This document shows positions 4,278 through 50,558 of a stretch of DNA of 64,000 nucleotides, piece after piece (the stretch's first letter is position 1; the number at the start of each line of letters is the position of its first letter). Under the pieces are notes generated by a model that did no database searches, was not told where the DNA came from, and saw only the letters and a program-made list of their open reading frames with translations. Source of the DNA: Sporosarcina trichiuri (lineage in GTDB: Bacteria > Bacillota > Bacilli > Bacillales_A > Planococcaceae); the NCBI RefSeq assembly GCF_030406775.1, contig NZ_CP129119.1, positions 406,001 to 470,000 on the forward strand, in the 5' to 3' direction. The translations under genes were made by a program, and so were the position numbers.

Positions 4278-5047
4278 AGCCACTCTACGAAGATCTGCAA
4301 GATCAATGCCGGACCCTGCGCTTAGCAGAGGCCGCAAAGGAGCTGCCCCGAATTTTACGGGAGGCCGAATCGAAGGGATGGACGTATCATGAATTGATGC
4401 ATGAATTCCTTCATTATGAGGTGCGATGCCGGGAGACAAAGAGTCGGGATAAGTTGATGAAATGGGCAGAGTTTCCTGAACTGCTCACCTTGGAGAACTT
4501 TCGGTTGGAAGAACAGACCGCAATCGGGGCCAAGCAACTGAATGTCTTAAAGGAGCTAGCGTGGGTAGAAGAATGTTTCACACTGATCATGATGGGGCCG
4601 ACGGGTGTCGGCAAAACCCATCTATCTACAGCATTAGGCATTCATGCGATTGAGAGAGGACACCAAGTGTCCTTCATCTCGATGGACCGATTGATGTATG
4701 TATTGAAGACCAAGGATTATACGGCCAAGTCTAAAACCCGCTACAAACGAATCGTCAAATCCGATTTAATCATTATCGATGACGTCATGTACATGGCCTA
4801 CGAGCCGCAGGAAGCTCATTTATTTTTCCAGTTCATTTATGAACTGTATGATCAAGCAGCCTTTATTTTGACATCCAACAAGGGGCCTGGAGAGTGGGGG
4901 AAGTTTTTAGGAGATCCGACATTGACCACAGCCATCCTGGATCGTTTACTGCATAGGAGCGAGATTTTAACGTTCAGCGAGGAGCAGAACAGCATTCGAA
5001 TGAAATATCGTCAGACGTTATTTACGACAACAGGTGTTGAATCTTAA
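4274..5047 (+). CDS. istB: IS21 helper ATPase IstB
   Basis: AAA+ ATPase of 257 residues related to DnaC/DnaA. Walker A GPTGVGKTHL is at about residue 108, and Walker B is seen as LIIIDDVMYM. IstB assembles on target DNA and stimulates IstA. It is full length for the family, has no frameshift, and is coupled to istA by the ATGA overlap. It ends about 60 bases before the right end of the element. Confidence 0.94.
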   Translation: MKPLYEDLQDQCRTLRLAEAAKELPRILREAESKGWTYHELMHEFLHYEVRCRETKSRDKLMKWAEFPELLTLENFRLEEQTAIGAKQLNVLKELAWVEECFTLIMMGPTGVGKTHLSTALGIHAIERGHQVSFISMDRLMYVLKTKDYTAKSKTRYKRIVKSDLIIIDDVMYMAYEPQEAHLFFQFIYELYDQAAFILTSNKGPGEWGKFLGDPTLTTAILDRLLHRSEILTFSEEQNSIRMKYRQTLFTTTGVES

Positions 5048-5107
5048 TTGTTGAAAACTGTTGTGTGATAATTGCCGAAAACTGCTTAATTCTACTTGAC
5101 GGTCACA

Positions 5108-5112
5108 GTATA
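5108..5112. repeat. Right target-site duplication GTATA
   Basis: Second copy of GTATA, directly after the ACA end of the IS21 element. Confidence 0.85.
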
Positions 5113-5487
5113 TTGCTCTTTCTATATTTAATTGTTGATTCTTTTTTAATAGATTTAAATGTTCCTGGAGATGTGATGGCACTTATTTCTTTAGGGTTTT
5201 TGAGTATTTATATACTTTTGAGATCGACCTTGACGGGTATTGAATATCCTGAAATTGCAACAAAAGCAAGATACAAAAAGGAAAAACGTTCTAAAGTTTA
5301 TGGATCGATTCGTTTCGGAATCCTATTTATAATCGTTTATGGTGTATTTAAAGGAGTTCCAGCTAACTTACAAGAAGTAGTAAATGTTATTGGACCAGCT
5401 ACATTAGCAACAGTATTTTTCTTTCTTTTAAATTATATTTCTTTGAGAAAGTCATATAGTAAAAACCGAAAATTGCTAGATGACTAA
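5113..5487 (+). pseudogene. 3' fragment of the membrane-protein gene cut by IS21
   Basis: 125 codons including the stop continue the frame of 2520-2618. The product has about four hydrophobic segments (for example LLFLYLIVDSFLI, MALISLGFLSIYILL, FGILFIIVYGVF and LATVFFFLLNYISL) and a basic loop near KARYKKEKRSK. It is a small polytopic membrane protein of the kind paired with YozG-like HTH regulators; I cannot name the family. Translation could only restart spuriously (for example near 5065), so the protein is presumed lost. AT-rich, like the HTH gene. Confidence 0.8.
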
Positions 5488-5621
5488 CATAATATCGATT
5501 GTGACTTTTTAAGGGTTTATTCTAGAATCGGGCGCGATTGTAGAAGAGTAATATGCATGCTTTAATAATAAGCGGCTGGGAGACTTGATTACACAATACC
5601 AGCCTGGTGATTCATACAAAC

Positions 5622-5652
5622 AAACAAGCCGCCCAAATTGGACGGCTTGTTT
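5622..5652. terminator. Bidirectional terminator after the RNA methyltransferase gene
   Basis: AAACAAGCCG and CGGCTTGTTT form a 10-pair stem with T-rich tails on both strands. It lies just past the minus-strand stop at 5657 and marks the right edge of the accessory insert. Confidence 0.75.
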
Positions 5653-5656
5653 CTTT

Positions 5657-6604
5657 TCATTCACAAACCACAACTTCCCGTTCGAAATGGGCTTTCCTCG
5701 CGATGCACCGGTCGGTGATCGTAAAACCGGCGTCGGCGAGCAGGTCGTCCATGTTTTCGATCGTCACGAGGACGAGCTTGTCGGTGAGCGGGCGGGCGGC
5801 CTTCAGGATGGAGGCCTGCTGCTCACGGGTCGCATGCGTGTAAAGGTTGTACGGCATATCGATGACCGCCGCGTCATAATGGCCGGCGGCTTCCTCGATC
5901 GGTCCGACATCCACAGTGCCCGTCAAACCGAAATGTTCGAGGTTCTTGCGCGACCCGAGCACAGCGAGCGGGTTGATGTCCCGGCCGGTCATGTCGATGT
6001 CCATCGAGCGGGCTTCGACGAGGACGTTGCCGATGCCGCAGCACGGATCGATCGCCCGGACGCCTTCCGGATGGGGAACGGCGATATTGGCGACAGCACG
6101 GGCCACGTGCGTGCTGAGAGCTGTCGAATACATTTCAGGCTTCTTGATATGGTTGCGCCACCCGGCCGTATTTTCTGTCAGGCTGCCGAACAGGAAGGTG
6201 TCCCCGATACGGACGACACCGTATAGCAGGTCCGGGCTGAACAGGTCCGCCGCTGCAGCCATCTTCAGCCCGATGGATCGCTCGATCCTGCGGCGCTCGG
6301 GGTGCGGAATCTTTTCGGTTTCACCGAGAGCCATCGTATTCAGGCAGCGGATCTGGAAGGTTGTGCCGTCATCCGGCAGGGTTGCTGCGAACCGGATGAT
6401 CTCTTCGATGGAATCGGCGGCTGCCAGCACGTCGAGCCGCTCTTTCATGAAAGGGCTCCTCTCGGGATCGATACAGCGGCCGCTGAACAGGTAGTTGGCT
6501 GTGGTGTCCTGTCCGAAGAGCGCGCGCATTTCGAGCCGGCAGAGGTCATGATCATCGGTCTGCCGGACATACGTATAGAGAAAACGGTCTGTCTGCATCG
6601 TCAC
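5657..6604 (-). CDS. RNA methyltransferase, TRM11/UPF0020-like
   Basis: A SAM-dependent methyltransferase of up to 315 residues. The C-terminal Rossmann domain has the SAM motif IDPCCGIGNVLVEA and a catalytic motif DMPYNLYT in place of the usual N/DPPY, as in the Trm11/UPF0020 group that makes N2-methylguanine in tRNA. The N-terminal half is divergent and a THUMP fold cannot be confirmed by eye. GTG 6604 overlaps the stop of the upstream gene (GTGA), and ATG 6598 is also possible. The exact substrate is unknown. Confidence 0.8.
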   Translation of the reverse strand: MTMQTDRFLYTYVRQTDDHDLCRLEMRALFGQDTTANYLFSGRCIDPERSPFMKERLDVLAAADSIEEIIRFAATLPDDGTTFQIRCLNTMALGETEKIPHPERRRIERSIGLKMAAAADLFSPDLLYGVVRIGDTFLFGSLTENTAGWRNHIKKPEMYSTALSTHVARAVANIAVPHPEGVRAIDPCCGIGNVLVEARSMDIDMTGRDINPLAVLGSRKNLEHFGLTGTVDVGPIEEAAGHYDAAVIDMPYNLYTHATREQQASILKAARPLTDKLVLVTIENMDDLLADAGFTITDRCIARKAHFEREVVVCE

Positions 6605-7179
6605 GCCTGGTCCTCGAGAGCGGTCAGCATGCGGAACAGCCAGCTGTACAGCAACTGCAGCGTGTCATTGAACGTCAGTGCATCCGAGAATCCTTCCGCG
6701 TGATCCAGAGCGATATTCACATCCCACAGACCGTCGTCATTCGAAAACATCATGCTCCGGGTGCCGGGAGCTGTGCCGAGATCCTGATCGATATACTGTT
6801 TCAGCCACTCTCCGTGCTTTTTTTGCAAACGCAGGCCGAACAGGGCGGTCACTGTGCCGAATACATCGTCGGCCTCCAAAGAGATGCCATCGACCCCGAC
6901 GGACTGGAACAGCGGCTCTTCTGCATAGACGTAGCGGTCCGGATGGTCTTTCACCCAGGTGATCGGCCGGCTGCCGATCCCGTCTTCAGCAGGGGTCTCT
7001 TCGTCCGTCTCCTTGTCCGCCGTGACATAGGACGGATTGAACAGTGGAGGCGCCAGGACCTCTGAGCCTGCTGGAAGAAGTCCCCTCTCCCTGGCGTAAG
7101 CGGCCTGCGCTTCCGTCAGCGGTATTCCCTCATCCGTCGTATTCGCTTCTATATAGGCTGTCAGCCAGTTCGTTATCAT
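6601..7179 (-). CDS. Conserved hypothetical protein, about 192 aa
   Basis: A soluble, acidic protein without signal or membrane segments. I do not recognise the fold; similar Bacillales proteins have sometimes been labelled as aminotransferases, but no PLP-lysine motif is visible. The start at ATG 7179 (MITNW) follows AAGGAG at 8-base spacing. The stop overlaps the start of the RNA methyltransferase, so the two are translationally coupled and likely function in the same process (inference). Confidence 0.7.
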   Translation of the reverse strand: MITNWLTAYIEANTTDEGIPLTEAQAAYARERGLLPAGSEVLAPPLFNPSYVTADKETDEETPAEDGIGSRPITWVKDHPDRYVYAEEPLFQSVGVDGISLEADDVFGTVTALFGLRLQKKHGEWLKQYIDQDLGTAPGTRSMMFSNDDGLWDVNIALDHAEGFSDALTFNDTLQLLYSWLFRMLTALEDQA

Positions 7180-34230: not shown

Positions 34231-34304
34231 ACAGCACTTCCGGGTGCAGAAGAAAACACTATACAAACAATTTAGAAATGGTATACTGGTCAGTAAATGA
34301 ATAT

Positions 34305-34461
34305 GCTTATCAAGAGAAGCTGAGGGAACTGGCCCTATGACGCTTCAGCAACCCCTGGATGATCCAGGAAGGTGCTACTTCCACAAGACTTTGTCTTGAG
34401 AGATAAGATGGACGTTACAGAACTCCCGCTATCTCTCAAGAGACTGGCGGGAGTTCTTTTG
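34305..34461 (+). promoter_or_regulatory. SAM-I riboswitch (S-box) with terminator, upstream of metA
   Basis: The conserved S-box core is clear: CTTATCAAGAGAAGCTGAGG, then TGGCCCTATGA, CTTCAGCAACC and the P1 3' strand CTTGAGAGATAAG (34395-34407). The terminator AACTCCCGC/GCGGGAGTTCTTTT spans 34421-34459. TATCTCTCAAG (34430-34440) in its loop region complements CTTGAGAGATA perfectly, showing the alternative antiterminator. SAM binding should switch metA off. Confidence 0.95.
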
Positions 34462-43901: not shown

Positions 43902-43927
43902 AAGTGATAAAGAGAAGGAGTGATGTT

Positions 43928-44869
43928 TTGACTGATTTGTTCGAAACAGCAGCAGCAGAGCAGGCGATCCGGAACGTCTTCCTGCGGACTGCTGTACCAA
44001 AAGGGTACCGGGAAGTGAAACTGCCGATGCTGGAATCCTATGAAACCTATGAAACCATTCAAACCACACAGGAGCGGAACCGGCTGCTGAAACTGATCAG
44101 CAGGGACGGTGCCATCCGCGTGCTGCGGCCCGACATGACGATTGCCCTCATGAAAGAACTGGCGGCAGGTGCCTCAGCTGATGCGCGTGATCTGCGCTGC
44201 TGGTATATGCAGCCCGTGTTCAGGCAGGAGGAGGATAAGGCTGGCCCCTCCGAAAGAAGGCAGGCGGGCATTGAGCTGTTCGGGGAGGAGACGGTCGGGC
44301 GGGATGCGGAAGCCATCTTGCTGGCCTGCAAGGTGATGATGGAAGCAGGAGTGACGGATTTCAAGCTGGAGATTGGCCATGCCGGCATACTGGATGAAGC
44401 CGCTCAGCGGATGAAGCTGGACGAAAACAAAACAAGGCAGGCTGCGGCACTGCTCCAGCAGAAGAACAGCGGGGAGATGGCAGGGTTCATCGCCGAAAAC
44501 GGAGTGGATGAGGCAACCGGCTCTTTTCTGAAATATCTTATCGGCACATACGGCAGCGCGGCAAATGTGTCCACACGACTCGGACAATCTTCCATGAACA
44601 GCCGGACAGACAAGATCTTCACCCACTTGAAAGCCGTCATCGGACTGGTGGCAGATCAGGGATACGGACACTGTCTCACCATCGACCTGGGGATGGTCAA
44701 TGACATGGACTACTACTCAGGCATCCAGTTCCAGGGATTCAGCAGCTCATATGGAAAGCCGGTTTTGATGGGCGGCCGGTATGATAACGTCAGCCGCAAA
44801 TTCGGAGCGGACCTGCCTGCTGTCGGTTTTGCCTGCTTTGTGGATGCTCTGATTGCAGGTAAATCATAA
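43928..44869 (+). CDS. hisZ: ATP phosphoribosyltransferase regulatory subunit HisZ (short form)
   Basis: 313 residues. A catalytically inactive HisRS-like protein that partners short-form HisG. Motif-2-like RVLRPDMTIALMKELA and YMQPVFRQEEDKAGPSERRQAGIELFG are clear, with the motif-3 region GYGHCLTIDLGMVNDMDYYSGIQFQGF. It ends about 80 residues earlier than the 391-residue B. subtilis HisZ, after CFVDALIAG. TTG 43928 follows AGAAGGAG at 8 bases. First gene of the his operon. Confidence 0.9.
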   Translation: MTDLFETAAAEQAIRNVFLRTAVPKGYREVKLPMLESYETYETIQTTQERNRLLKLISRDGAIRVLRPDMTIALMKELAAGASADARDLRCWYMQPVFRQEEDKAGPSERRQAGIELFGEETVGRDAEAILLACKVMMEAGVTDFKLEIGHAGILDEAAQRMKLDENKTRQAAALLQQKNSGEMAGFIAENGVDEATGSFLKYLIGTYGSAANVSTRLGQSSMNSRTDKIFTHLKAVIGLVADQGYGHCLTIDLGMVNDMDYYSGIQFQGFSSSYGKPVLMGGRYDNVSRKFGADLPAVGFACFVDALIAGKS

Positions 44870-44902: not shown

Positions 44903-45565
44903 ATGGCACCGCTGAAAATTGCTGTCGCAAAAGGAAGGATAGCGGATACGGCAAGGGAATTGCTGACGGAGGGAGGCATCGGATTCCCGGATGTCCTCCC
45001 GGATGAACGGAAACTGATCATCACGAGCAGCAGCGGGACGCACCAGCTGCTGCTGGTCAAACCGGCAGATGTCCCGACATATGTCGAGCAGGGGGCTGCC
45101 GATCTGGGAATCGCAGGGAAAGATACCATTTTGGAAGAATGCAAAGACGTATACGAAGTGCTCGATCTCGGGATCGGCGGATGCAGGATGGTCGTTGCCG
45201 GATTTCCGGACAGCACGCCGGACGCTGTACAAACCTTGAAAGTCGCAACCAAGTATCCGAATATCGCCGGCTCTTATTTTGTGCAGGAAGGCATCCGCGC
45301 AGAGATCAGTAAACTGCATGGCTCCATTGAGCTCGCCCCCCTTGCAGGTCTTGCGGATGTCATCGTGGATATTGTGGAAACCGGCGCGACACTTCGGGAG
45401 AACGGCCTTGTGGTCCTTCGGGAAATCGCTCAGGTGAGTGCGCGTGTCATCGTCAACAAAGCGAGTTTCGCGACCCGCACAGACGACGTAAGGCAATGCC
45501 TGCAACTGCTTGAGAAAGGAGTGGGGAAGCAGCATGAGGCTACTGACGGATTGGCAGCAGATTGA
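44903..45565 (+). CDS. hisG: ATP phosphoribosyltransferase, short form
   Basis: 220 residues. First step of histidine synthesis, joining ATP and PRPP. Short-form HisG lacks the C-terminal regulatory domain and needs HisZ, encoded just upstream. The PRPP loop DIVETGATLRENGL and the N-terminal KIAVAKGRI are intact. AAAGGGGTG precedes ATG 44903. The C-terminus overlaps the hisD start by 32 bases. Confidence 0.94.
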   Translation: MAPLKIAVAKGRIADTARELLTEGGIGFPDVLPDERKLIITSSSGTHQLLLVKPADVPTYVEQGAADLGIAGKDTILEECKDVYEVLDLGIGGCRMVVAGFPDSTPDAVQTLKVATKYPNIAGSYFVQEGIRAEISKLHGSIELAPLAGLADVIVDIVETGATLRENGLVVLREIAQVSARVIVNKASFATRTDDVRQCLQLLEKGVGKQHEATDGLAAD

Positions 45566-46811
45566 ACAGCAGCTGGAGCGAAGGATATCCGGGCACACCG
45601 TCGAAGACACTGTGCGCGCGATCATCGCACGTGTCAGGCAGTACGGCGATACAGAACTGCTGGCGCTTGCCAGACAATATGATGGTGCGGATCTCGAAAA
45701 CCTGCAGGTCACCCTACAGGAGATCACAGAAGCCGTCCGGGATGTGCCCGACGGTCTGATGAAGTCCCTTACAGCAGCAAAAATGCGTATCCAGCGCTTT
45801 CACGATCAGCAGAAGGAAGAGAGCTGGGATTTCCGGCCGGAACCTGGCGTGCGTCTCGGCCAGCTCATCCGGCCAGTGGAAGCGGCAGGCATCTACATAC
45901 CGGGCGGAAAAGCCGCGTACCCATCAACTGTGCTGATGAATGTGCTGCCCGCGAAGATTGCAGGCGTGGAACGGATTGTCATGGTCACGCCGCCGGATTC
46001 CGAAGGCCGCGTTCACCCTGCCGTGTTGGCGGCGGCCGATCTGTGCGGAATCACGGAGATCTACAAAGTCGGGGGCGCGCAGGCAATCGCCGCCCTGGCA
46101 TACGGCACGGAAACGATCGGCCCGGTTGAAAAGATCACTGGGCCGGGCAATGCATATGTCGCGTGTGCGAAGAAACTCGTCCAGGGTGACGTCGGAATCG
46201 ATATGATCGCCGGTCCCAGCGAAGTATGCATCTGGGCGGATGAACAGGCCGATCCCGCGTTCATCGCCGCAGATCTCCTCGCACAGGCGGAGCATGACGA
46301 ACAGGCGACGGCCTGCTGCATCGTGGAGACCGAAGCTTTCGGCCAGGCGGTCATCCGTGAGATCGGAAGGCAGCTGGAAGTGCTTGACCGGAAGGACATC
46401 GCAGGCAGAGCCATAGCGGAACACGGATGGATCGCCGTCCTTTCGGCAGAGGATGATGCCATCCGCCTGATCAACCGGCTGGCTCCTGAGCATCTGGAAA
46501 TCATGACTGCCGAACCTGAAAAGCGGCTGGAGGATATCCGCAATGCGGGAGCGATATTCATCGGTCCTTATTCTCCGGAAGCGCTCGGTGATTATATGGC
46601 AGGGCCGAACCATACGCTGCCGACGAATGGGACCGCGAAATTCTCCTCGCCGCTTGGCGTGTACGACTTTACGAAACGGACAAGTATCATCCGGTATGAG
46701 GAGCAGGCACTCCGTTCCGTCGCGGATGAAATCATCACACTGGCACGGACTGAACAGCTTGGCGGTCACGCCGGTTCGATTGCCATCAGAACTAAGGAGG
46801 CAGGATTATGA
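45534..46811 (+). CDS. hisD: Histidinol dehydrogenase
   Basis: 425 residues. A zinc enzyme oxidising histidinol to histidine in two NAD+ steps. The HisD signature runs through IDMIAGPSEVCIWAD and LLAQAEHDEQA (zinc and catalytic His/Glu). ATG 45534 is chosen after AAAGGAGTGGGG, giving a 32-base overlap with hisG; the TTG at 45510 lacks a ribosome site. The stop overlaps hisB by four bases. Confidence 0.95.
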   Translation: MRLLTDWQQIEQQLERRISGHTVEDTVRAIIARVRQYGDTELLALARQYDGADLENLQVTLQEITEAVRDVPDGLMKSLTAAKMRIQRFHDQQKEESWDFRPEPGVRLGQLIRPVEAAGIYIPGGKAAYPSTVLMNVLPAKIAGVERIVMVTPPDSEGRVHPAVLAAADLCGITEIYKVGGAQAIAALAYGTETIGPVEKITGPGNAYVACAKKLVQGDVGIDMIAGPSEVCIWADEQADPAFIAADLLAQAEHDEQATACCIVETEAFGQAVIREIGRQLEVLDRKDIAGRAIAEHGWIAVLSAEDDAIRLINRLAPEHLEIMTAEPEKRLEDIRNAGAIFIGPYSPEALGDYMAGPNHTLPTNGTAKFSSPLGVYDFTKRTSIIRYEEQALRSVADEIITLARTEQLGGHAGSIAIRTKEAGL

Positions 46812-47389
46812 GACAGGCAGCGATAGACCGGAAGACCGCGGAGACGGACATCAGCCTTTCCCTGAAACTGGACGCTGAAGGAACCAGCGATATCCGTACA
46901 GGCATTGGATTTCTCGATCACATGCTGACACTTACCGCGATGCACGGCCGTCTCGATCTGGGTGCCGCCTGCACCGGTGACCTGGAAACGGATCAGCATC
47001 ACAGTGCGGAAGACGTCGGTATCGTTCTCGGGCAGGCGTTCCGCCAGTGCCTCGGCACGAAGGAAGGGATCGAACGATATGCATCCGTCACAATTCCGAT
47101 GGACGAGTCGCTTGCGACTGTGTCACTCGACATCAGCGGAAGGTCACTGCTCGTCTACAACGTGCCCGGTCTCAAGGATAAGATCGGCGACTTCGATACG
47201 GAACTTGCCGAGGAGTTTTTCCTTGCATTCACACGTCATGCAGATGTCACACTGCACATCAGCCTGCACTATGGAAAAAACAGCCACCATATGCTCGAAG
47301 CGGTGTTCAAAGCGTTCGGGAGGGCGCTGCGCACCGCATCGGCCCGGACGTCAACCGAAGGGGTGCCGTCCACGAAAGGTCTACTATAA
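46808..47389 (+). CDS. hisB: Imidazoleglycerol-phosphate dehydratase
   Basis: 193 residues, monofunctional (no phosphatase domain; that role is HisJ). Manganese-binding signatures GFLDHMLT, DQHHSAEDVGIVLGQA and the C-terminal HYGKNSHHMLEAVFKAFGRAL are intact. ATGA overlap with hisD. In Bacillus the next gene would be hisH; here hisA follows after 23 bases with no hisH remnant. Confidence 0.95.
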   Translation: MRQAAIDRKTAETDISLSLKLDAEGTSDIRTGIGFLDHMLTLTAMHGRLDLGAACTGDLETDQHHSAEDVGIVLGQAFRQCLGTKEGIERYASVTIPMDESLATVSLDISGRSLLVYNVPGLKDKIGDFDTELAEEFFLAFTRHADVTLHISLHYGKNSHHMLEAVFKAFGRALRTASARTSTEGVPSTKGLL

Positions 47390-47412
47390 ACGGACTGAAA
47401 GGAGTTGGGAAA

Positions 47413-48126
47413 ATGATACTGTTGCCGGCAATCGATATCCGGCAGGGAAAGTGTGTCAGGCTTGTGCAGGGAGATTTCGGGCGGCAGACCGTCTATCATG
47501 ATTCGCCGCTTGAGATGGCATGGAACTGGGCCGGAAAGGGGGCGGAGTGGCTTCATGTCGTCGATCTGGATGGCGCGGAATCCGGCCGGTCCGTGAACCG
47601 GGAACTGGTTCTGTCCCTTGCGGAAAAGATCGGCATACCGATCCAGCTGGGCGGAGGCATCCGTTCTATCAAGACAATCGATGAGTATCTGGCTGCTGGC
47701 ATCGAGCGTGTCATCCTTGGGACAGCAGCCATCGAGGATCCTCGTCTGCTGGAGCGTGCCGTTGAAAACTACGGAAACCGGATCGCCGTTTCGATCGATA
47801 CGAAAAACGGAATACCGACGACCGCAGGCTGGACAGGGACGGCTGCTGTGTCGCTTGAGGAATTACTGCAGCGTCTCATTGGGACCGGTATCCAGACGGT
47901 CATATACACGGATATCGGTAAAGACGGCATGCTTTCAGGACCCAACTTCAGCGACCTGAACCGGCTGCGGCAGAACAGCACGCTCAATATCATCGCATCC
48001 GGCGGTGTCACGACTGCGGAGGATGTCCGCCGGCTGAAGGAAGATGGGTTTCATGGGGCAATCGCCGGCAAAGCCATTTACGAGAACGAAGGCCGTTTTG
48101 AAGAAATGATGGGAGGACTTTCATGA
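47413..48126 (+). CDS. hisA: ProFAR isomerase
   Basis: 237 residues. A TIM-barrel isomerase acting on ProFAR. Catalytic Asp in LLPAIDIRQGKCVRL (residue 8) and in YTDIGKDGMLSGPN, and phosphate loops LGGGIRS and ASGGVTT, are all present. GAAAGGAG precedes ATG 47413. Its stop overlaps the HisF-HisI-HisE gene by four bases. Confidence 0.95.
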   Translation: MILLPAIDIRQGKCVRLVQGDFGRQTVYHDSPLEMAWNWAGKGAEWLHVVDLDGAESGRSVNRELVLSLAEKIGIPIQLGGGIRSIKTIDEYLAAGIERVILGTAAIEDPRLLERAVENYGNRIAVSIDTKNGIPTTAGWTGTAAVSLEELLQRLIGTGIQTVIYTDIGKDGMLSGPNFSDLNRLRQNSTLNIIASGGVTTAEDVRRLKEDGFHGAIAGKAIYENEGRFEEMMGGLS

Positions 48127-49478
48127 AAAAGCGAACAATACTAGCATGTCTGGACATCGATAACCGCCGTGTGGTGAAAGGGAAGAAATTCGAAGATGTG
48201 AAAGAGCTTGCAGATCCCGTGGAACTCGCAAGGAAATATGAAGCTGAGGGCGCCGATGAACTCGTATTCTACGATATATCGGCATCCGTCGACAGACGCG
48301 GCATGTTTCTGGACCTTATCAGGACGATCGCCGATGAACTCACAATCCCGTTCATCGTCGGCGGAGGGATCCAGACGCTGTCTGACGCGGAACTCGCTTT
48401 CGAAGCGGGGGCTGACCGGGTATCCGTCAACAGCGGAGCGCTCAGAGATCCGGAACTGTTGCGCCGGATATCCGAACGGTACGGTGCTGAGAAACTGCTC
48501 CTCTCCATGGACGTGAGCCGGTCATCAGAAGGGCAGTGGAACGTGTACGCGAAGGCGGGCAGGGAAGACACCGGACAGAATGCCTTGGAATGGGCAGCAG
48601 AAGGGGAACTTCTCGGCGCAGGCGGGCTTGTCGTCAACTGCATCGATGAAGATGGGATGCAGAACGGTTACAATCTGGAGCTCACTGAGAAAATCGCGCA
48701 ATCCGTTTCCATACCCGTCATTGCCAGCGGAGGGGCAGGCCGTCCCCAACACATTACAGAGCTGTTCGAGCGCACGTCCGCACAAGGTGCTCTTGCAGCC
48801 TCGATCCTGCACTATGGCCAAGTGACCCTTCAGGAGCTGCAGGAGGCAAAACGAAGCGCCGGATCTTCTGCCGTCAAGTGGGATGAAAACGGTCTGGTGC
48901 CTGCTATCCTACAGGATGCACAAACGAAAGATGTGCTGACACTTGCCTATATGAATGACGAGGCACTCGAGAAGACGATCAAAACGAAAGAGACATGGCT
49001 GTTCAGCAGGTCCCGGCAGGAATTATGGCACAAAGGCAAGACATCCGGCAACCGGCAGACTGTCAGGGAGATCCGGTACGACTGTGACAGGGATGCGGTC
49101 CTGCTGCTGGTCGATCCGATGGGGCCGGCATGTCATACCGGTTCGGCTTCATGCTTCAGCGGGGAAGCGCCCGGCGCCAAGTCGCAGGCAGAGACTGTCC
49201 TGCAGGATCTTGCTGACCGGATTGCGGCACGACAAGCGGCCCCGGCGGATGGTTCCTACACATCCTATCTGTTTCGGGAAGGGCTGGATAAGATACTGAA
49301 GAAAGTCGGGGAAGAAGCGACAGAGGTGGTCATCGGTGCGAAAAACGGCAATCTGAATGAAACAGCAAATGAAATCGCGGACCTGGCATACCACGTATTG
49401 GTTTTGATGGCGGAACTCGGCCTGCCAGCTAAAAACGTGACAGATATCTTGAAAGGACGAAAAACGGAAAAGGAGTGA
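48123..49478 (+). CDS. hisF: HisF-HisI-HisE trifunctional fusion protein
   Basis: A single open frame of 451 residues. The HisF barrel (about 1-240) keeps catalytic Asp11 and Asp130 and phosphate loops VGGGIQT and ASGGAG. HisI follows directly from about 243 (KWDENGLVPAILQDAQTKDV; zinc Cys in RYDCDRDA and ACHTGSASCF) to about 345. HisE is about 355-451 (GSYTSYLFREGLDKILKKVGEEATEVVIGAK). HisF ammonia-gate positions differ: Arg99 instead of Lys, and Gly168 where GAGE is usual. No hisH exists in the operon, so ammonia may come from solution (inference). ATGA overlap with hisA. Bifunctional HisIE is common; this triple fusion is not one I recognise. Confidence 0.9.
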   Translation: MKKRTILACLDIDNRRVVKGKKFEDVKELADPVELARKYEAEGADELVFYDISASVDRRGMFLDLIRTIADELTIPFIVGGGIQTLSDAELAFEAGADRVSVNSGALRDPELLRRISERYGAEKLLLSMDVSRSSEGQWNVYAKAGREDTGQNALEWAAEGELLGAGGLVVNCIDEDGMQNGYNLELTEKIAQSVSIPVIASGGAGRPQHITELFERTSAQGALAASILHYGQVTLQELQEAKRSAGSSAVKWDENGLVPAILQDAQTKDVLTLAYMNDEALEKTIKTKETWLFSRSRQELWHKGKTSGNRQTVREIRYDCDRDAVLLLVDPMGPACHTGSASCFSGEAPGAKSQAETVLQDLADRIAARQAAPADGSYTSYLFREGLDKILKKVGEEATEVVIGAKNGNLNETANEIADLAYHVLVLMAELGLPAKNVTDILKGRKTEKE

Positions 49479-49484
49479 TCAGCC

Positions 49485-50558
49485 ATGTCCGACCTATGGA
49501 GTGAAATGGCAAAACGCGCCAAACCGTATGAGGCAGGCGAACAATCCCTCCGTCCGGGAACCGTCAAGCTCAATACAAATGAAAATCCGTATCCGCCATG
49601 TCCTCCCGTCTTCAAAGCACTGGAATCATGCCTTGGCAGCAGCCTGCGCACATATCCGGATCCCAATTCATCAACCTTGCGTCAGGCTATCGCCCGGCTC
49701 CATGGTGTGAACGAGAACCAGGTTTTCGCCGGGAACGGATCCGACGAAGTGCTCGGGTTTGCATTCATGGCTTTCTTCCGTACGGACAGAACCATCCGCT
49801 TTCCGGAAGTGACCTACTCATTCTACCCGGCCTATGCACAGCTGTTCGGCATCCCATACGAAAAAACGGCTCTCCGGGAGGATTTCACGATCGATGAAGC
49901 CCGTTTTTTCGGATCGGAAGGCGGTGTCATCTTCCCGAATCCGAATGCGCCGACCGGCATAGTACTGCCACTGTCGGCAGTAAGAGATATTTGCATGAAC
50001 AACGGAGACCGCCCCGTCATCGTCGATGAAGCGTATATCGACTTTGGAGGAGAGACTGCCATTTCCGCCATCGCTGAATTCAAAAATCTTCTCATTGTTC
50101 GAACCCTGTCGAAATCGCGATCGCTCGCCGGATTGAGGGTCGGCTATGCGGTCGGTCAGGAAGACATGATCGAAGCACTGAACCGCGTGAAAAACTCGTT
50201 CAATTCCTATCCTCTCGACCGGCTGGCACAGGCCGCCGCACAAGCCGCTATCGAAGATGAAAGCTATTTCAATGAGACCGTCTCCGTGATTAAACGGACA
50301 AGAGAAACTGCGCAAGAGACTTTCGTGTCCCTCGGATTCGATGTCCTGCCGTCGTCTGCAAACTTCCTGTTCGTCCGCCCGCCCGTCCTGCCGGCAGAAC
50401 AGCTGTACCGGGAGCTGAAAGACCGCGGCATACTCGTACGCCACTTCAAACAAAAGAAGACCGAGGATTGGCTGAGGGTATCGATCGGCAAGGAAGAGGA
50501 AATGGCACAGCTATACCGCGAACTGGCGGACATATTGTCTGCAGCGATACAGACATGA
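49485..50558 (+). CDS. hisC: Histidinol-phosphate aminotransferase
   Basis: 357 residues. A fold-type I PLP enzyme with the N-terminal KLNTNENPYPP, FAGNGSDEVL, the Asp-Tyr pair in VDEAYIDFGG, and the PLP lysine in RTLSKSRSLAGLRVGYA. Converts imidazole-acetol phosphate to histidinol phosphate (and may also serve aromatic amino acids). It starts six bases after the fusion gene and closes the operon. No clear terminator is seen in the 87 bases that follow. Confidence 0.93.
   Translation: MSDLWSEMAKRAKPYEAGEQSLRPGTVKLNTNENPYPPCPPVFKALESCLGSSLRTYPDPNSSTLRQAIARLHGVNENQVFAGNGSDEVLGFAFMAFFRTDRTIRFPEVTYSFYPAYAQLFGIPYEKTALREDFTIDEARFFGSEGGVIFPNPNAPTGIVLPLSAVRDICMNNGDRPVIVDEAYIDFGGETAISAIAEFKNLLIVRTLSKSRSLAGLRVGYAVGQEDMIEALNRVKNSFNSYPLDRLAQAAAQAAIEDESYFNETVSVIKRTRETAQETFVSLGFDVLPSSANFLFVRPPVLPAEQLYRELKDRGILVRHFKQKKTEDWLRVSIGKEEEMAQLYRELADILSAAIQT

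Follow-up and report, generated by a model that had tools for sequence, protein, structure and literature searches.

The Histidine Operon and the Fused hisF-hisIE Gene

The window analyzed here is a stretch of 64,000 nucleotides from the genome of Sporosarcina trichiuri (G000), a 3.06-Mb assembly in a single contig with 96% completeness. Genes for histidine biosynthesis were found on the forward strand between positions 43904 and 50558, in the order hisZ-hisG-hisD-hisB-hisA-hisF-hisIE-hisC (Table 1), which places HisF in a histidine-operon context. The hisF-hisIE frame overlaps hisA by four bases, and every other his gene of the operon is an open frame with a family match.

Table 1. Histidine operon features in the window and the changed gate residues of the fused HisF.
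Feature	Position	Strand	Basis or remark
hisZ	43904..44869	+	TIGR00443, 251.5 bits (cut-off 271.65)
hisG	44903..45565	+	TIGR00070
hisD, candidate start codon	45510..46811	+	TIGR00069
hisB	46808..47389	+	NF002111
hisB-hisA gap, 23 bases, too small for hisH	47390..47412	+	hisB end 47389, hisA start 47413
hisA	47413..48126	+	TIGR00007
hisF-hisIE	48123..49478	+	single 451-aa frame; cyclase without HisH, with HisI and HisE attached
HisF domain, residues 4-244	48132..48854	+	TIGR00735; D11 and D130 kept
Gate R5 (T. maritima) to Thr5	48135..48137	+	alignment to T. maritima HisF
Gate K99 to Arg99	48417..48419	+	alignment to T. maritima HisF
Gate E167 to Gly168	48624..48626	+	alignment to T. maritima HisF
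HisIE domains, residues 248-448	48864..49466	+	NF002747; PRA-CH and PRA-PH
hisC	49485..50558	+	TIGR01141

The best NCBIfam match of the HisF part was TIGR00735 with 290.9 bits, 3.7 bits under the cut-off of 294.55, and the HisIE part matched NF002747 with 260.6 bits, over the cut-off of 187. Based on Pfam annotation, the domain order in the protein is His_biosynth, PRA-CH (PF01502) and PRA-PH (PF01503). An identity as WbuZ or HisF2 was not supported for the HisF part, as the WbuZ model reached 234.5 bits against a cut-off of 299.7 and the AglZ/HisF2 model was also far under its cut-off. Thus, the first-pass annotation, which had read HisF, HisI and HisE as one uninterrupted frame with intact Asp11 and Asp130 of HisF, was borne out by the family models and by alignment to T. 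maritima HisF, respectively.

That annotation had also considered a sequencing error hiding a stop or a frameshift near position 48850. This is very unlikely because a separate assembly, that of Sporosarcina koreensis S-K12 (locus L031), which is the closest named genome identified, shares the fused frame, with only 5 of 1353 bases of hisF-hisIE different (2 silent and 3 not) and 98.4% DNA identity over a 13.2-kb piece. With so few differences, the dN/dS ratio is uninformative on function. It should be added that a SAM riboswitch aptamer (34304-34409, + strand, 87.4 bits) was the sole Rfam match over the gathering score in the window.

Distribution of the HisF-HisIE Fusion

In the first-pass annotation, a triple fusion of HisF, HisI and HisE was treated as unfamiliar; its novelty was not supported by a search of 5.8 billion proteins. 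From 7996 scored candidates the best 120 were listed; 111 of these 120 listed matches had the fused length, one was 348 aa long and eight were single HisFs. The fused relatives among the matches listed included those of Limnochorda pilosa and of a Thermoanaerobaculia MAG, with the same domain order in a single frame. Furthermore, hisF-hisI-hisE fusions are mentioned in a passage of PMC9413887, and hisIE, HIS4 and HIS7 are named as his fusions in passages of a 2007 review (PMC1963479). The fusion as such can therefore be ruled out as the novelty of this locus.

Within the genus, six further named Sporosarcina loci (L032-L037) carry hisF and hisIE as separate, overlapping frames; for this reason, the fusion looks recent and appears to have arisen at an overlapping gene pair. 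We infer that it arose late in the lineage of S. koreensis and was of minor importance. Two 482-aa open frames obtained in the genome search (G021 and G066) were rejected as fusions, since each contains a same-frame stop between HisF and HisIE. With regard to the channelling of intermediates, which the first-pass annotation had raised as a possibility, the HisIE and HisF steps are separated in the pathway by the HisA step.

Absence of hisH

The HisH model (TIGR01855) gave no match in the whole Sporosarcina trichiuri genome; the same model matches all 14 control genomes, 13 of them over the cut-off. Among 151 genomes of the family, HisH was found over the cut-off in 127, versus none of the 19 Sporosarcina and Savagea genomes included in this set (17 of the host genus and 2 of the second genus, Savagea). 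Some of these 19 contain weak class-I matches below the HisH cut-off, and all 19 have HisF. Additionally, no class-I glutaminase motif was present in any operon-strand frame of the his loci L031-L037; in each of three loci from other organisms (L038, L039 and L041), one frame with such a motif was located near hisA/hisF. Five more family genomes were without HisH over the cut-off, and the match to the query HisF-IE was strong in one of them (G041), weak in two (G017 and G050) and missing in the other two (G061 and G107).

The missing hisH went unnoticed in the first reading of the window. A class-I glutaminase was counted as lost where it was absent or Cys-less, and for the fused HisF the glutaminase, HisH, is absent. 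Neither the HisH partner nor the complete four-residue gate of a glutamine-dependent HisF-HisH IGP synthase was found here. The suggestion of an ammonia-dependent HisF, made in the first-pass annotation from the gate residues, is well supported by the absence of hisH from the genome and the genus, and the gate residues are not the reason for it. Since hisH is gone and HisF is retained along with the rest of the his genes, this HisF most likely uses free ammonia.

Gate and Active-Site Residues of HisF

The HisFs of the 19 HisH-free genomes were compared with 27 HisH-bearing relatives, using the numbering of T. maritima HisF. The ammonia gate, which we take to be formed by R5, E46, K99 and E167 of that protein, keeps only E46 in the fused HisF. 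K99 is also named in PMC10115891. The replacements of K99 and E167 seen in the first reading were confirmed against T. maritima HisF; that of R5 had not been seen there.

All four gate residues are kept in the 27 HisH-bearing relatives. In the HisH-free set, E46 is kept in 19/19 proteins, and K99 and E167 are each kept in 18/19, the exception being the fused protein of the window with R and G, respectively. Position 5 is more variable, with R in seven proteins, Lys in 11 and Thr in the fused one. No change was seen at the catalytic residues D11, K19 and D130 in any of the 19. T5, R99 and G167 are common to the S-K12 HisF and the window protein; in the six other named Sporosarcina loci, position 5 is Lys, whereas K99 and E167 are unchanged. 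An alignment of HisFs with and without hisH thus speaks against the earlier proposal that the gate residues mark an ammonia-dependent HisF, and changes at K99 and E167 were rejected as a signature of HisH-free HisFs. As these residues are kept in all HisH-free HisFs compared from outside the S. koreensis lineage, the gate loss was late and local. Among the 111 fused relatives listed, E46 is kept in 103, E167 in 103 and K99 in 60, while the window protein keeps only E46 of these three.

Y50 and N171, found together in 19/19 HisH-free and 0/27 HisH-bearing relatives, were also rejected as diagnostic residues. Both occur in E. coli HisF and in the HisF of locus L038; hisH is part of the E. coli operon, and the L038 operon includes a HisH-like frame.

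In the HisF tree, the 27 family HisFs formed one group (96/88), and the 19 HisH-free HisFs were spread across a 99/99 branch together with HisFs of other sources; G000, G116 and P0002 were not firmly joined to the other 17. This placement, in a tree whose sampling is biased to relatives of the query and in which some branches are long, points to transfer as the origin of HisF or of a larger part of the operon.

Other Class-I Glutaminases in Sporosarcina and Savagea

Class-I glutaminases were surveyed in the same 19 genomes, with four HisH-bearing ones (G001, G005, G010 and G130) as controls. The 19 genomes are kin, so their counts are not independent. For orientation, a GatA tree placed Savagea among Sporosarcina, with long branches.

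TrpG/PabA-like proteins, with a length of about 200 aa and scores over 160 bits, were found in 4/4 controls and 0/19 genomes, and no class-I frame under 300 aa scored above 75 bits in the 19. The chorismate-binding enzymes are present, with three or four per genome in 17/19 and two in G000 and G116. In the six trp loci read, trpD comes after trpE and there is no trpG (L076, L078 and L085 by family models; L081, L086 and L087 by gene order and letters). In L085, from Savagea G027, TrpE and TrpD are fused (frame 4369-6777), and no TrpG lies between or nearby. In the pab loci L079, L082 and L088, a second TrpE/PabB-like gene is directly followed by pabC and folP; family models were applied to L079 and to a single gene of L088, where the TrpE model outscores the PabB model. 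The second chorismate enzyme of the Sporosarcina trichiuri genome is an isochorismate synthase, and therefore no own PabB was found there in that search.

The other class-I enzymes remain in most genomes with an altered active site. The nucleophile Cys of PyrG (CTP synthase) is replaced by Ser, Gly or Ala in all 19 genomes (controls 4/4 with Cys), and that of CarA by Gly in all 16 genomes with this protein (controls 4/4 with Cys). GuaA (GMP synthetase) keeps the Cys in 4/19 genomes (G021, G066, G076 and G128; controls 3/3 fetched); the other 15 comprise 12 with Ser, two with Gly and G140, in which the domain is cut away. In 17 of the 18 PurQ proteins present, Gly takes the place of the Cys and Leu that of the catalytic His; the remaining one keeps the Cys (controls 2/2 fetched). 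Since PurQ is over the cut-off in 18/19 genomes and altered in 17, its loss cannot be described as a genus-wide deletion. The replacing residue varies in both PyrG and GuaA, a hint of multiple events.

The PurQ of G116 (G116:C45:90884-91537; L064 and L070) is the only one of the 18 with intact Cys and His. It scored 305 bits, compared with 180-263 bits for the other 17, and was perhaps regained by transfer.

Neither CarA nor CarB is present in G000, G085 or G116, where carbamoyl phosphate must therefore be made by another route or spared. PurQ and PurF are also absent from G000. Consequently, in Sporosarcina trichiuri itself only HisH, TrpG, GuaA and PyrG support the change.

Among the best 120 relatives listed for each protein, the catalytic position is occupied in CarA by Gly (84), Cys (34) or Asn (2), and in PyrG by Ser (43), Gly (23), Ala (1) or Cys (53). 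Named organisms among these matches were picked by eye: those of Sporosarcina, Filibacter and Savagea have Cys-less CarA in 11/11 and Cys-less PyrG in 20/20 cases, whereas the other named genera keep the Cys in 15/16 CarA and 32/32 PyrG proteins. The Asn was seen in the CarA of Bhargavaea ginsengi (P0237) and of a relative (P0230), and the Bhargavaea CTP synthases P0326 and P0358 keep Cys. Perhaps this CarA represents an early or a separate step of the same change.

Remaining Glutamine Use

At what we take to be the triad positions of GatA, Lys-Ser-Ser is kept in 19/19 genomes. The PurF Cys is kept in 17/17 proteins read, a set that excludes G000, which has no PurF, and G027. Full-length GlmS with the MCG motif was found in G000, G055, G116, G140 and G008, and a divergent copy in G027 has MCE. 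Two Peptidase_C26 proteins of the Sporosarcina trichiuri genome keep GICRG. Because the nucleophiles of GatA, PurF, GlmS and Peptidase_C26 are kept, glutamine is still used, and the loss concerns the biosynthetic class-I set.

In 13/19 genomes (G002, G021, G039, G066, G076, G085, G094, G103, G110, G122, G128, G134 and G146), the GlmS search gave no match beyond PurF or sugar-isomerase pieces. One idea is that NagB, running in reverse with ammonia, provides glucosamine 6-phosphate in these genomes, which would fit the pattern. The glnA gene was over the cut-off in 11/19 genomes, with two copies in Sporosarcina trichiuri; there was no match in G021, G066, G076, G085, G128 and G027, and only a weak relative in G039. 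In G110, glnA is represented only by fragments in short frames (G110:C1:1289522-1289881), consistent with the loss of glutamine synthetase.

Ammonia as the Probable Nitrogen Source

Several published observations indicate that HisF can work without a glutaminase. According to PMC3896937, E. coli HisF alone is active when ammonia is high and the pH exceeds 8 (cited there), C. glutamicum needs no added histidine for growth after deletion of hisH (unpublished data cited there), and no other case of an in vivo IGP synthase without glutaminase had been reported. For T. maritima HisF, the assays in PMC11350729 used 100 mM ammonium acetate (pH 8.5). In C. glutamicum, HisF supplies histidine without the glutaminase, as is proposed for Sporosarcina and Savagea, but there a functional hisH was deleted by experiment, whereas here hisH is naturally absent from 19/19 genomes. 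Compared with the HisF-HisH IGP synthases of T. maritima and E. coli, the HisF fold with catalytic D11, K19 and D130 is the same; the differences are the missing HisH in Sporosarcina and the changed R5, K99 and E167 in the window protein.

Urease (over 170 bits) was detected in 15/17 genomes of the genus, 0/2 Savagea genomes and 24/132 other genomes of the family; the two of the genus in which this survey did not detect it are Sporosarcina trichiuri and G039. An ammonia-rich life therefore fits most of the genus and not the urease-less strain of the window.

Proposed Explanation and Alternatives

Judging from the sequences compared, we consider it quite probable that the HisH-free HisF-IE is one case of a lineage-wide loss of class-I glutaminases that left ammonia-fed synthases behind. 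In the fused protein, both the HisF cyclase and the attached HisIE would be functional, and the HisF part would convert PRFAR and free cytosolic ammonia to imidazole glycerol phosphate and AICAR; free ammonia is the expected donor because there is no HisH to supply ammonia from glutamine. In the Sporosarcina/Savagea lineage, HisH and TrpG/PabA would have been deleted, and CarA, PurQ, PyrG and most GuaA proteins would have lost the nucleophile. The remaining synthases would then aminate with ammonia, and class-II enzymes and tRNA amidation would keep using glutamine. The likely reason why the class-I (Cys-His-Glu) glutaminases became dispensable is an ample ammonia supply in these bacteria, most of which carry urease. 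After the HisH loss, the HisH-facing gate residues would have eroded in the S. koreensis lineage. In Sporosarcina and Savagea, the synthesis of histidine, tryptophan, folate, carbamoyl phosphate, purines, CTP and, in most species, GMP thus seems likely to run on free ammonia.

It is also possible, though unlikely, that the histidine pathway is decaying, with histidine taken from the surroundings, hisH lost first, and the fusion and gate changes arising by drift. Decay would agree with the replacement of all three of R5, K99 and E167 in the lineage of S. koreensis and with the lack of PurQ, PurF and CarAB in Sporosarcina trichiuri, and the S-K12 comparison offers too few differences to show constraint. 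However, the other his genes are all open with family matches, and HisF persists with its D11, K19 and D130 in all 19 genomes without HisH. Moreover, S. pasteurii DSM33 is reported to have grown on omission of the glutamate group, in which Gln and His are included (PMC7775470). That a substitute glutaminase pairs with HisF, with glutamine still the nitrogen donor, appears highly improbable. Other Cys-bearing proteins of the class-I fold are indeed kept, for example the two Peptidase_C26 proteins mentioned above, but by family these are PuuD-like hydrolases, which, judging by length and match range, also occur in the HisH-bearing controls, and a substitute would leave the in-place Cys losses in CarA, PyrG and PurQ unexplained.

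A further explanation reaches the same outcome through a different cause, namely that the class-I Cys was selected against as poisoned, e.g., by urea-derived cyanate, and was not merely dispensable. Cyanate is known from older work to react with the glutamine-site cysteine of CPS. It carbamylates proteins, as described in PMC6022934, urease is present in most of the genus, and the loss is confined to class-I enzymes. Nevertheless, Peptidase_C26 with its class-I fold, PurF and GlmS all keep their Cys, and redundancy explains the deletion of HisH and TrpG/PabA equally well; poisoning is very unlikely. Some points also stand against the proposed shift to ammonia: glutamine is still used, urease is absent from the window strain, G039 and Savagea, and the Cys is kept by four GuaA proteins and the PurQ of G116. 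The family score of the fused HisF slightly below the cut-off and the tree placement that points to transfer count on the same side. The gene absences, residue changes and gene orders described above were observed directly, and from them we infer the in vivo activity with ammonia, the order of events and their cause.

If true, the loss would be a cell-wide bacterial counterpart of the change from CPS III to CPS I in ureotelic animals, and the fused HisF-IE would be a natural HisH-free IGP synthase. Human CPS1, as described in PMC4655335, lost the same Cys that is Gly in 16/16 CarA proteins of the Sporosarcina and Savagea genomes and takes ammonia; CPS I of ureotelic vertebrates is a single enzyme, while in Sporosarcina and Savagea six class-I systems (HisH, TrpG/PabA, CarA, PurQ, PyrG and GuaA) are concerned. 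Natural loss in one genus, with five other class-I systems, would open the question of ammonia versus glutamine as donor to an evolutionary test, including the order of the losses, compensating changes and the ammonia level needed. No publication on hisH or class-I glutaminase loss in Sporosarcina was found in the open-licence literature. The present observations may bear on older reports, cited in PMC7775470, that S. pasteurii, the main biocement organism, requires ammonia and lacks the activities of glutamine synthetase and glutamate synthase. For enzymologists, they provide candidate ammonia-only HisF, CarAB, CTP synthase and GMP synthetase.

In addition, three fused HisF-HisIE proteins of another lineage (P0010, P0019 and P0041) were observed to have all four gate residues changed (R5S, E46Y, K99H and E167T or S). 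Based on these replacements, they are candidates for a second HisH-free lineage.
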